Shown here: one piece after another, positions 2,381-10,969 of the stretch
How positions within the stretch are numbered: position 1 is the first letter of the stretch
Layout: each line of letters starts with the position of its first letter
Program-made: the position numbers and the translations under genes
From: a virus
DNA length: 64,000 bases
Strand: one strand, 5' to 3'
Virus record (IMG/VR): IMGVR_UViG_3300044835_000075
Coordinates: 1-64,000 of that record
Notes under the pieces: model-generated
The model's database searches: none
What the model saw: the letters and a program-made list of their open reading frames with translations, nothing else
What the model was told of the DNA's origin: nothing

Positions 2381-4507
2381 CTATGCCACCACCTGTGCAC
2401 TCACCGTGCCCGCGCCGACGCCGAGCAGCTCGAACGTCGTCCCGGCCGCCAGCACGATCGCGCCCCCGGCCACTCCGATCGCCACCCCCGCCGGAATCAG
2501 CACCGTAAGCACCACGGCCGCGTCCGACGGAATCGCCAGCCCCAGCACCGGCGTCCCCGGCATCGAGATCGACTGACCGGGCAGCGCCGCCAGCGGTGCG
2601 GTCAACGCGCGGTAGGCGATGATCGGCTGCTTGAGCGTCACCAGCGACGCCACCGGCGGCAGTCCATACCCATCCGGGGTAGGGGTAAGGGTCTCGCCCA
2701 TCGAGCGAGCCGCCGACTTCGCCACGGCCGCCGTGAGCATGTCGAGCGTCCTGCCGGGAGCGCCGGAGTCGGTGCGCGCGGACTCGGCCATCTCGTTCAT
2801 CCTGCGGGCCGCGTCGCCCGGCTTGCGGAACAGCAGTCCGCACCGGCAGTTTTTTGTAGGTATACTGTTCGCTAAGAACATCCCCGCCGTCGTCTGGAGC
2901 GTGTACACGTGGCCCCTAAACGCCTTCCTCTCGATCTTGACCACGCGGTCAAGCTCTACAACTCCGGCCAGCCTCTCCGTGAGGTCGCCTCTCATTTCGG
3001 CATGAGCCAAACCACCCTTTTCCTGAGATTTCGTGAAGCCGAAGTCCCTATGCGCATCGGATCGCAGAAGATCCTGCCCCTTCGCGTCTCGATTGATGCC
3101 GAGGAAGTCGCCACTCGTTACCGGAACGGCGAGAGCGAGAAGGCTCTCAGCGAAGCGCTCGGGGTCGACCGGTCCACCATCCGAACCCGCCTTGAGCGCA
3201 GCGGCATACAGCCACGCGGGCGCTCGGAATCCTTGCTTTTGCGTTGGTCCCGGCTCGATGTCGCCGAACGTGAGGCACTCGTTGTCGCTGCCCACATCGC
3301 CGGTCGCGGACGAATCGCCAGCACCGAAGAACTGACCCGCCGGGCTCAGTCCCGCGCCTCGCTCGACTGCTTCACCTCGCCCTGGGAAGTCGTTCTTGCT
3401 GACCTGCTCGCCGACCGAGGCGTGACGGCCGATCCGCAACGCGCTGTCCACCACTACAATGTCGACCTGGCCTGCTGGCCGGTCGCCGTGGAAATTCACC
3501 GCGACCCCGGGCATCCCCTGAACCGGCGCGCGCGTCGCCAGCGCATCGTGGACCTGCTCGATCGTGGCTGGCTTCCCCTCTACGTCTGGCTCAACCCGCG
3601 CACCAGCGCCGTGACCAACGCGTGTGCCGATCACGTAGTCGAACTCATTCAGCTCGCCCAACGTGACCCAGCCGCGTTCGGTGAGTACCGGGTGATTCGG
3701 GGTACCGGTGAGGCTGCGTCCCTGCGCAGTGCGAAGGGTCACGACCTGTCCGACATACGGCGCACGAAATGAACCTTCGACGTCGGGCCCTGCAACCTCC
3801 GTCTCCGGCACAAAGCAGTTCGCGACCTCGCCCCACGACGCGGGTAGATCCGCCGGATCGCCGGGGTGCTTGAGCTGGAACTTGCCGACCGTGAACGTCT
3901 CCCCCACCGGCCGCACCTGCCCGTCGGCGACCACGTGGGTGTGCCGGACGCGGTCGTCCCGCTTTGAGAGCCATTGAGTGTGGGTCACGCCGAGCCGCAC
4001 GGCGGTGCGCAGGGCGGCGTCGTTGACCAGCGCGTTGCCGAGTGTCCGCCCGGCCATCAGAAGCCAATTGCCCCCCCTGTCGTGCGCGGCCTTGATGTTG
4101 TCGAGCACCTCGTCGAGGTCTTCGGCGGTCTTGTCGGAGTCGAGCACGGCCGCCCGGACGACCTTGGCGTGCGCGTCGGCGACCCCGAGGATCCGGCTGA
4201 TGACGTCCTCGACGGCTGCGGTGAGGTCTCCCATGTCGAACGCGGTGAGGTCGGAGCCGCCACCCAGGTTGGACGATGTCTCTTTCGCCGCCTCGGTGGC
4301 GATCCGGAGCACGACGGGGCGGATCTCCTCGCGCAACTCCGCTTCGAGTTTGTCCGGCACCACGTAGGCCGGGTCCAGCGCTTTGAGTTCGCGGGTGAGT
4401 ACGGCCGTGCCGCCGCCCTTGGTCTCGACCTGGTCCCACCACCGGGTGTGCTTGCGCGCCTTGGGGCCCTTGACGCGGGCGGTGACGACGGCCAGCGAGC
4501 GCTGCAA
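2381..4507 (-). CDS. MuF-like minor head protein interrupted by an intein
   Basis: 708-codon frame. Residues 1-230 and 554-708 are the exteins. The first ends KHPGDPADLPASWGEVAN and the second begins CRCGLLF, together giving the NCRCG end of the SPP1 gp7 / Mu gpF head-morphogenesis domain (THTQW, RDDRVRHTH upstream). Residues 231-553 are an intein. The C-terminal extein ends in a hydrophobic Gly/Ala/Val stretch. Role by family: minor capsid protein made next to portal. Start is uncertain: TTG 4507 has no RBS, and protein-like sequence (RLVNAVDARARRAEDALTAV) continues upstream in frame into the portal end with no ATG/GTG/TTG before a stop at 4727-4729. Confidence 0.82.
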   Translation of the reverse strand: MQRSLAVVTARVKGPKARKHTRWWDQVETKGGGTAVLTRELKALDPAYVVPDKLEAELREEIRPVVLRIATEAAKETSSNLGGGSDLTAFDMGDLTAAVEDVISRILGVADAHAKVVRAAVLDSDKTAEDLDEVLDNIKAAHDRGGNWLLMAGRTLGNALVNDAALRTAVRLGVTHTQWLSKRDDRVRHTHVVADGQVRPVGETFTVGKFQLKHPGDPADLPASWGEVANCFVPETEVAGPDVEGSFRAPYVGQVVTLRTAQGRSLTGTPNHPVLTERGWVTLGELNEFDYVIGTRVGHGAGARVEPDVEGKPATIEQVHDALATRAPVQGMPGVAVNFHGDRPAGQVDIVVVDSALRIGRHASVGEQVSKNDFPGRGEAVERGAGLSPAGQFFGAGDSSATGDVGSDNECLTFGDIEPGPTQKQGFRAPAWLYAAALKAGSDGGPVDPERFAESLLALAVPVTSGDFLGINRDAKGQDLLRSDAHRDFGFTKSQEKGGLAHAEMRGDLTERLAGVVELDRVVKIERKAFRGHVYTLQTTAGMFLANSIPTKNCRCGLLFRKPGDAARRMNEMAESARTDSGAPGRTLDMLTAAVAKSAARSMGETLTPTPDGYGLPPVASLVTLKQPIIAYRALTAPLAALPGQSISMPGTPVLGLAIPSDAAVVLTVLIPAGVAIGVAGGAIVLAAGTTFELLGVGAGTVSAQVVA
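2849..3817 (-). other. intein (323 residues) within the MuF gene
   Basis: Begins at Cys1 (codon 3817-3815), has a block-B-like GTPNHPVL (Thr39, His42), a block-F-like VYTLQTTAGMFLANSIPTKN and terminal Asn323 (2851-2849) followed by Cys+1. The usual penultimate His is Lys. No LAGLIDADG motif is seen in this reading frame; the middle ~230 residues are the in-register complement of the endonuclease gene on the other strand. The C-terminal block uses AT-rich codons unlike the exteins, consistent with transfer. Splicing should restore the MuF protein; the Lys substitution leaves activity to be tested. Confidence 0.82.
2909..3772 (+). CDS. antisense Vsr-like homing endonuclease inside the intein
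   Basis: 287 residues from GTG 2909 with GGAG 9 nt upstream; lies wholly inside the intein on the opposite strand. Residues ~8-45 and ~55-105 look like two successive helix-turn-helix segments (PLREVASHFGMSQTTLFLRF and ALSEALGVDRSTIRTRLE). The C-terminal half has PWEVVLADLLADRGV, then NVDLA, PVAVEIHRDPGHP and GWLPLYVWL, the E..D..E.H order of Vsr/EDxHD-type nucleases. Known relatives act as homing endonucleases near inteins and introns. The last ~27 codons run antisense to intein block B and may be dispensable. The assignment rests on motifs read by eye. Confidence 0.75.
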   Translation: MAPKRLPLDLDHAVKLYNSGQPLREVASHFGMSQTTLFLRFREAEVPMRIGSQKILPLRVSIDAEEVATRYRNGESEKALSEALGVDRSTIRTRLERSGIQPRGRSESLLLRWSRLDVAEREALVVAAHIAGRGRIASTEELTRRAQSRASLDCFTSPWEVVLADLLADRGVTADPQRAVHHYNVDLACWPVAVEIHRDPGHPLNRRARRQRIVDLLDRGWLPLYVWLNPRTSAVTNACADHVVELIQLAQRDPAAFGEYRVIRGTGEAASLRSAKGHDLSDIRRTK

Positions 4508-8914: not shown

Positions 8915-10969
8915 ATGTCCAAGCCCGAGATCAACTTGTGGGAGGTGCTCTACCGCAAGCGGCTCGGCCTCGGCCCCTTCTACGTCGGGGTCGGTGCCGC
9001 CGCGCTTGCGGGGCTCTCCTCCCTGCTCGGCGACGTCGAAACGATCATCGCCGTCGTGGCGGTAGCTCTCGCGCTCGGCGCTTGGGCACACACCCGCGTG
9101 AAGGACGGCCTGCGCCGTGGCTACGCCTTCACCGTCATCGGCTCGTCGGCGCTCTGGATCATCGTCGCCCACCTGTACTCGACCAGCCTGCTCTCCGCCC
9201 TGATCGTGGCGAACCTGTCCGCCACGCTCGTGCTGGGCATCGGCTGGTGGACCTCGCACCGCCAGCGTGCCCAGGTCCGCATGGCCGAGGCGCTCAAGGA
9301 CTGGCCGGAGCTGGTCAAGCGGATCAACTACGACAAGATCCCCGCGCCGGGTGTCACCATCTCCCCCATCGGCTACGGCGGCAAGCTCAAGTGGGCGCCG
9401 GGCGAGTACGACGTCGCCGACATCATCCGGGACAAGGGCAAGTTCGAGAACATGCTGGGCGCCGACCACGGCCAGATGCGGATGGAGCGCGACGGCAAGT
9501 CGACGAACTCGGTGAAGTTCCAGGTCATCACCAACGACCCGCACTCGCTGGCGCAGGACTGGGCGCCGCCGACGTCGGTCGTCCAGGCGACGGACCCGCT
9601 GGCGATCGGTCCGCGTGAGGACGGGATCGTCGCGACGATCCGCCGATTCGAGCGCAACTCCGGTGTCCGGCACGCCCTGATCGCGGGAGCCACGGAGTCG
9701 GGCAAGTCGAGCCTGGTCAACCTCATGGTCGCCACGGACGTCTGCTCGGATGAGGTGTTCCAGATCGGGTTCGACTTCAAGCAGGTCGAGTTGACCCCGT
9801 GGGAGCGGGCGATGGGGTTCGTGATCACCAAGGTCCCCAGCGCTGTGGAGATGGTGCGCGGGTTCGCCGCGCCGGGCGGCTTGCTGGAGACGCGGGGCGA
9901 CATCCTCGCGGAGCGTGGCCGCCGGGAAGGCAAGGGTGTCCGGATATGGGACACGAAGAAAGACGGCCCGATCATTTCCATTGTCGTCGACGAGGCGAAG
10001 GATTTGCTTGGAACGACTGATTCCAAGACGGTTGATGCCTTTGCCTTGATCGCGACAAAGGGTCGCGCGCTGGGTGTCCGTTTCGTTATCGCTACGCAAT
10101 TCCCGACGCTTGAGGCTATCGGTTCTTCGCAGATCCGCCAGCAGGTCCGGCACCGGTTCTGCTTCCGGATGCAGGACTCGGCCGGGGAGAGCTTCGTGAT
10201 GCCGGGGCACCGCGTGCGGGCCGAGGCGATCGACGCGGAGCGCAAGGGCACGTGCTACATGCTCGACGGCGACCGGCTGGAGTCGATGCCGATCCGGGTC
10301 TACTGGATCGACGACGACATGGTCGCCGCCGTCGTCGCGGCCCGCGCGGGCCGGACGCCGGAACTCGACGCGCGCAGCGCCGAGGCGATCGAGCTGTACT
10401 TCCCGGATTTCGCGAACCGCATGGTGCGCATCCCGGAGCCGACCGGGACGAGTACCGGGACTGACGGCGGGACCGGGACCGGGACTAGTCCCGGGACTGA
10501 TGACGGCGGGACCGGGACTAGTCCCGGGACGACCGGGACCGACGTCGGGACTGTCCCGGCCGGTGATGAGGAGGGCGACGCGATGGCCGGGACTGGCGAC
10601 GAGTGGGTCGACTTGAACAAGGGCCCGCAGGTGGAGATCGAGGACGTCATGGCGTCCCGGGACTCGCACCTGACCGAAGAGGAGCGGGAGCGGCTGGAGC
10701 GGGACCGGCGGGTGGCGTTGGCCGAGGTCCCGGGACAGCGGTTGAACGAGGAGCAGGCCCGGGACGCGTTGATCCGGGCGCTGGAGGCGGCGGGACCGGA
10801 GGGCGCGAAGGCGAAGGATCTTCAGGTTGCGGCTGACCGCTCGTCGAGCTGGTTCTACAAGGTCGCGGCGCAGATGGCCGAGGACGGAATCGTGAAGCGG
10901 ACGACGCGAGGCAAGTGGATGATCCTCAAGCCGAAACTGTCGTTGGTGACTACCGCACCGAAGGGGTAG
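8915..10969 (+). CDS. FtsK/SpoIIIE-type conjugative DNA translocase (TraB-like)
   Basis: 684 residues, ATG 8915 with AAAGGAAG RBS. N-terminal ~120 residues hold three to four membrane segments. The motor has Walker A GATESGKSS (~residue 258) and Walker B ISIVVDEAKDL (~352). A Gly/Thr/Pro linker (~510-548) is written in DNA as repeated ACCGGGAC. A C-terminal winged helix (~617-675, AKDLQVAADRSSSWFYKVAA) matches the FtsK gamma/TraB DNA-reading domain. Streptomyces TraB proteins move double-stranded plasmid DNA between mycelial cells with no relaxase. Family is certain; a conjugative rather than packaging role is inferred from the SpdB neighbour. Confidence 0.88.
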   Translation: MSKPEINLWEVLYRKRLGLGPFYVGVGAAALAGLSSLLGDVETIIAVVAVALALGAWAHTRVKDGLRRGYAFTVIGSSALWIIVAHLYSTSLLSALIVANLSATLVLGIGWWTSHRQRAQVRMAEALKDWPELVKRINYDKIPAPGVTISPIGYGGKLKWAPGEYDVADIIRDKGKFENMLGADHGQMRMERDGKSTNSVKFQVITNDPHSLAQDWAPPTSVVQATDPLAIGPREDGIVATIRRFERNSGVRHALIAGATESGKSSLVNLMVATDVCSDEVFQIGFDFKQVELTPWERAMGFVITKVPSAVEMVRGFAAPGGLLETRGDILAERGRREGKGVRIWDTKKDGPIISIVVDEAKDLLGTTDSKTVDAFALIATKGRALGVRFVIATQFPTLEAIGSSQIRQQVRHRFCFRMQDSAGESFVMPGHRVRAEAIDAERKGTCYMLDGDRLESMPIRVYWIDDDMVAAVVAARAGRTPELDARSAEAIELYFPDFANRMVRIPEPTGTSTGTDGGTGTGTSPGTDDGGTGTSPGTTGTDVGTVPAGDEEGDAMAGTGDEWVDLNKGPQVEIEDVMASRDSHLTEEERERLERDRRVALAEVPGQRLNEEQARDALIRALEAAGPEGAKAKDLQVAADRSSSWFYKVAAQMAEDGIVKRTTRGKWMILKPKLSLVTTAPKG
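10442..10539 (+). repeat. ACCGGGAC octamer cluster within traB-like gene
   Basis: Six copies of ACCGGGAC at 10442, 10454, 10472, 10478, 10511 and 10532, interleaved with ACTAGT-centred CCGGGACTAGTCCCGG palindromes. They encode the Gly-Thr linker. The reverse complement GTCCCGGT resembles the 8-bp TraB recognition sequence of Streptomyces plasmid pSVH1 (GACCCGGA, from memory). Confidence 0.6.

Follow-up and report, generated by a model that had tools for sequence, protein, structure and literature searches.

Can one stretch of phage DNA encode a splicing intein on one strand and, in the same codon register, a homing endonuclease on the other? The question is raised by a minor head gene in the window, the 64,000-nucleotide stretch analysed here, which is part of a 107-kb virus record. 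The first-pass annotation, made from the sequence alone, described a 323-codon intein in a minus-strand MuF gene and, wholly inside it, a 287-codon plus-strand gene that uses the same triplet boundaries. Both descriptions hold. We conclude that the element is very likely a mobile intein of MuF genes, with a separately expressed homing endonuclease (HEN) encoded antisense in exact register; its splicing, cleavage site, and homing are inferred.

The host gene and its intein

The MuF-like minor head gene occupies positions 2381–4507 of the minus strand, where 4507 marks a TTG start chosen by the ORF finder and the true start is possibly further upstream; the frame runs without a break from upstream of 4507 down to 2381. 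Its product matches the head protein family phrog_15127 (9e-40), the exteins, once joined, show weak similarity to PF04233 (Phage_Mu_F; E = 0.003), and a portal gene lies directly upstream. The neighborhood has features of its own. Directly downstream of the MuF gene, 806–2218 encodes a domain of the 2'-5' RNA ligase superfamily (PF13563); Gordonia phage Vivi2 likewise has an annotated RNA ligase close to its MuF gene. Next to the head genes in the window lies an FtsK/SpoIIIE-type ATPase gene (8915–10969, plus strand).

The intein spans 2849–3817 on the minus strand, 323 codons from Cys1 (3815–3817) to Asn323 (2849–2851), and is followed directly by Cys-Arg-Cys, the first of these being Cys+1 of the restored NCRC. 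Its landmarks include block B with its TPNH (TGTPNHPVLTERGW; 3668–3709, minus strand), an FHGD motif (3482–3493, minus strand), block F (GHVYTLQT; 2891–2914, minus strand), and the C-terminal SIPTKN. Pfam family PF14890 matches the window intein at E = 8e-7, below the curated cut-off of the family, and matches 60 of 61 intein homologues; the intein model has its top Foldseek match in the Mtu RecA intein (E 5e-4). The similarity to Hint domains on which the first-pass annotation depended is therefore present. Across the complete clusters of relatives described below, Cys1 is present in 113 of 116, with Asn|Cys at the junctions.

Empty sites complete this identification. The MuF genes of the Salmonella phage SEW_9 and the Gordonia phage Jabberwocky are close relatives that lack the insert, and their two parts meet precisely at N|C, which supports the N|CRC junction proposed in the first-pass annotation. 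By its nucleophile and junction residues, its Hint similarity, and these exact empty sites, the insert is a Hint-type intein; that it splices is inferred. In the structural model, both Hint halves are predicted with pLDDT above 90, and the linker between them is predicted to be disordered (pLDDT below 50), apart from an ordered middle segment around residues 80–122. The FHGD motif falls in this ordered segment and is kept beyond the needs of the antisense nuclease. In the intein reading frame, domain searches of the window intein and its homologues gave no match to any nuclease family.

The antisense gene, its relatives, and selection on both frames

The HEN gene (2909–3772, plus strand) runs from a GTG at 2909 through 287 codons to a stop at 3770–3772. 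The AlphaFold model of its product (mean pLDDT 90) predicts two helix-turn-helix (HTH) units and a mixed alpha/beta nuclease domain. The HTH segments comprise residues 10–43 and 64–97 (2936–3199, plus strand), and the nuclease domain comprises residues 158–264 (3380–3700, plus strand), with conserved E160, D186, and E195 that are invariant or nearly so across the family. Profile comparisons match HEN to the HTH protein Cbp1 (1.4e-7), to I-Bth0305I (PDB 3r3p; 2.7e-5), and to the endonuclease-like protein NGO0050 (3hrl; 1e-4), and match Vsr (1cw0) at only 1.2. Pfam family MTES_1575 is recognized in 41 of 66 HEN relatives. The nuclease domain of the window taken alone has no Pfam match, and Foldseek against the PDB returns agreeing but weak matches, none with E < 0.001. 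The first-pass description of two HTH-like segments and a Vsr/EDxHD-like core thus holds in part: nuclease similarity is present and the EDxHD type fits by profile, but the His of the EDxHD signature is not conserved within the family. On profile and model evidence, HEN is predicted to be a PD-(D/E)XK/I-Bth0305I-like nuclease with two HTH motifs; DNA cleavage is inferred. In two relatives (L020:2174–2977 and L124:2857–3846), a Cys-rich, zinc-ribbon-like N-terminus replaces the first HTH.

Relatives reveal how widespread the arrangement is. In protein searches of phage records, an intein query and an antisense-protein query both match the same MuF genes, from phages of Gordonia, Salmonella, Pseudomonas, Vibrio, Klebsiella, Haemophilus, Edwardsiella, and other hosts. 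Both frames are open and in the same register in 21 of 22 annotated loci; in those 21, annotation across the insert covers the MuF strand only. Scans of virus contigs and genomes raised the total to about 210 loci, forming 134 clusters at 70% identity. These scans returned no loci when the single window protein served as query, and succeeded with sub-alignments as queries. The antisense protein was their sole selection criterion, and the sample was therefore not biased by design toward open intein frames. Profiles recognize both intein halves in 125 of the 134 clusters, and the remainder are truncated at contig ends or are free-standing genes.

Wherever the intein ends can be placed exactly (116 clusters), neither frame contains a stop in any cluster. 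The GC content of these clusters ranges from 0.37 to 0.71, with 37 below 50% GC. A null built from HEN amino acids and local codon usage expects about 115 of 125 to carry at least 1 antisense stop. The first-pass annotation had noted that the window gene avoids TTA, CTA, and TCA codons. It does, but with its amino acids and the codon usage of the region taken into account, the probability of this is about 0.08; avoidance in a single GC-rich gene is weak evidence alone, and the comparative data lie far beyond chance. Some apparent exceptions were set aside: locus L109 reflected alignment run-on and is actually nested and open, and in 5 loci with an apparent HEN stop the alignments had overrun the natural stop codon.

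Free-standing relatives provide natural controls. Four are known in this sample (L014:2453–3343; L124:2857–3846; L130/L131, with L131:2929–3801; and L201:2794–3660; all plus strand), each a convergent gene directly 3' of an intein-less MuF gene. Their antisense frames contain 12, 4, 2, and 5 stops, respectively. Some of these genes overlap the MuF end tail to tail, and as a group they resemble a collaborative-homing or escape stage. They are scattered over the family tree and, because they fall in different parts of it, the nested and free-standing states appear to have been exchanged more than once; some placements are weakly supported, and the direction of exchange is unsettled.

Both frames are under protein-level selection, as shown by substitutions counted by codon position in 55 independent pairs. 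Where the HEN core lies over the linker, the fastest position is the HEN third position (0.455 versus 0.323); in the parts that encode intein only, it is the intein third position (0.50 versus 0.24 and 0.41 versus 0.18). The zone over block B, which lies opposite the YRVIRGTG motif at the HEN C-terminus, is constrained in both frames. HEN synonymous sites are frozen there: the codon for Val262, which faces the block B His, is GTG in all 84 of 84 cases where 26.7 are expected. Similarly, synonymous sites are frozen in the HEN active-site codons VAVE (residues 192–195) opposite the intein FHGD motif.

Expression, mobility, and competing explanations

The signals for expressing HEN lie within intein codons. 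Read on the opposite strand, the block F His codon becomes the HEN start codon and the codons next to it become the Shine-Dalgarno, exemplified by CTGGAGGTTGTACACATG opposite HVYNLQ. In the window, the Shine-Dalgarno GGAG (2896–2899, plus strand) lies 9 nt before the GTG, antisense to the block F Leu-Gln codons. Across the family, the block F His codon is CAT, which yields a HEN ATG, in 75 of 90 cases (37 expected), and the Shine-Dalgarno-bearing Leu codon is CTC in 65 of 84 (19 expected). Further upstream, a -10-like TATACT (2861–2866, plus strand) lies 42 nt before the HEN start, antisense to the intein Ser-Ile-Pro codons, and scores in the 97–99th percentile of synonymous shuffles. The family has a TATAAT-like box at preferred distances of 45, or 26–30, nt before the HEN start. 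Scored against synonymous shuffles, this box ranks on average at the 83rd percentile, whereas control stretches of the same genes reach the 42nd–43rd percentile and ordinary inteins the 25th (a small sample, n = 8). The window yields no promoter in a generic sigma-70 scan. Computation thus shows that HEN expression signals are conserved, on statistical grounds and with a -10-like box only. This supports the earlier suggestion that the nuclease is expressed independently of the head operon, for which there are no transcript data.

Evidence for homing is indirect and comes from empty sites, gene location, and co-inheritance; cleavage, splicing, and homing themselves are inferred, partly from what is known of these protein families and partly from where the insert is present or absent. 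Almost every HEN relative is located either within this intein or immediately next to a copy of the target gene that lacks the insert. HEN divergence correlates more strongly with that of the Hint domain (rho 0.50) than with that of MuF (rho 0.27). The intein with its antisense HEN is also found in a dCMP deaminase gene (L018:745–1632, minus strand) and in a terminase large subunit gene (L123:2752–3651, minus strand).

We propose the following mechanism, on a computational basis only, without biochemical, proteomic, or transcript data. The minus strand would be read as MuF, intein, MuF; the Hint halves would fold together, splice, and restore NCRC, and the middle of the intein would be mostly a disordered linker, a shadow cast by the codons of the endonuclease. 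HEN would have its promoter, ribosome site, and start codon within the codons of blocks F and G and, with start signals of its own, could therefore be made apart from both the head operon and the intein protein. It would most likely cut around the N|CRC codons of MuF genes that lack the intein, and repair of the cut would then copy intein and HEN gene together. A bolder reading, which we regard as likely with all its parts taken jointly, is that these loci represent a widespread, undescribed class of mobile inteins: a cis-splicing intein and its HEN on opposite strands in exact register, with HEN signals within the catalytic codons of the intein, in phages of many bacterial groups and in at least 3 kinds of host gene (MuF, dCMP deaminase, and terminase).

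Other explanations deserve consideration. The plus-strand frame could be a chance open frame, of the sort common antisense to GC-rich genes. The window is GC-rich and holds many long spurious ORFs, and the probability of 0.08 for its own gene does not dismiss the idea. It is all but excluded by the family: homologues are open both ways down to a GC content of 0.37, substitutions track the HEN frame, the antisense protein is modeled with high confidence, the codon-usage null predicts far more closed frames than are seen, and the free-standing controls do carry stops. A different view holds that the intein is dead or split, is not spliced as one chain, and has its halves merely separated by the antisense gene. 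In its favor, the middle of the intein is predicted to be disordered, so the Hint halves could behave like those of a split intein. We judge this very unlikely. In-register antisense stops are absent from every complete cluster, even at low GC, and the continuous intein frame is therefore under selection; Cys1 and the Asn|Cys junctions are retained. No split frames of host gene or intein were found, and MuF, intein, and MuF form one unbroken frame.

A different task for the nuclease is harder to dismiss, though in our view still unlikely. The antisense protein might be a nuclease or DNA-binding regulator that excludes rival phages or regulates head genes and has no part in intein mobility. It has two HTH motifs, its nuclease activity is only inferred, and homing endonucleases can exclude rivals too (PMC7468147). 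Against this stand its near-constant location inside the intein or beside an intein-less target, the exact presence/absence polymorphism between close phages, and its closer co-inheritance with Hint than with MuF. The reading we prefer remains that of a mobile intein with an antisense endonuclease.

Significance and relation to known systems

In this family, two partners share one DNA stretch in opposite directions, and the intein and HEN consequently constrain each other codon by codon. The loci offer a natural example of long antisense dual coding that is unusually clean, with both products identifiable, and a testable answer to how the timing of intein nuclease expression could differ from that of the host gene. 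Since annotation pipelines keep one strand, more than 100 phage genomes seem to hold an overlooked nuclease gene. The predicted disordered linker also suggests compact cis-splicing inteins as tools.

The first-pass annotation knew of no precedent. We likewise found no description of an antisense endonuclease within an unbroken intein in the literature searched, of which coverage is incomplete and excludes the fractured-gene paper discussed below, but the arrangement is a widespread family and not unique to the window. In papers on phages of Salmonella and E. coli, the MuF intein is described but the antisense gene is not, and the database annotations searched make no mention of it.

Inteins and homing endonucleases are well known, and their union is usually viewed as either a fusion in frame or a set of split genes. 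Like canonical inteins (such as PI-MtuI RecA, VMA, and DnaB), the element described here has a Hint domain, Cys1, an Asn|Cys junction, a conserved insertion site, and a nested endonuclease; unlike them, it places the endonuclease outside the intein protein, on the other strand and with its own start signals, and most of its in-frame linker is predicted to lack order. Fractured genes are reported to carry a Vsr/EDxHD-type endonuclease gene between split-intein halves (Dassa et al. 2009, cited in PMC3229294). They share with this family a separate EDxHD/Vsr-like endonuclease gene between intein halves, whereas here the intein frame is unbroken, in cis, and the nuclease gene overlies it antisense, base for base.

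Other systems resemble the family in single features. I-Bth0305I (PDB 3r3p; PMC3943268) is a homing endonuclease of the EDxHD type that belongs to a group I intron; its catalytic domain gives the profile match reported above, and in both proteins the DNA-binding segments are apart from the nuclease. HEN differs in residing antisense in an intein, in lacking a conserved EDxHD His, and in binding DNA, as predicted, through HTH repeats. Free-standing endonucleases beside their targets, and collaborative homing, have been described (PMC2988022, PMC10448857) and are paralleled by the 4 convergent relatives directly 3' of intein-less MuF genes, whereas in most loci the HEN gene lies antisense inside the element. 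Finally, ambigrammatic narnaviruses keep a long reverse-complement frame open alongside an essential gene (PMC6884476). The phages share this long open reverse frame, but they are DNA phages, and both of their proteins have recognizable folds and likely functions.
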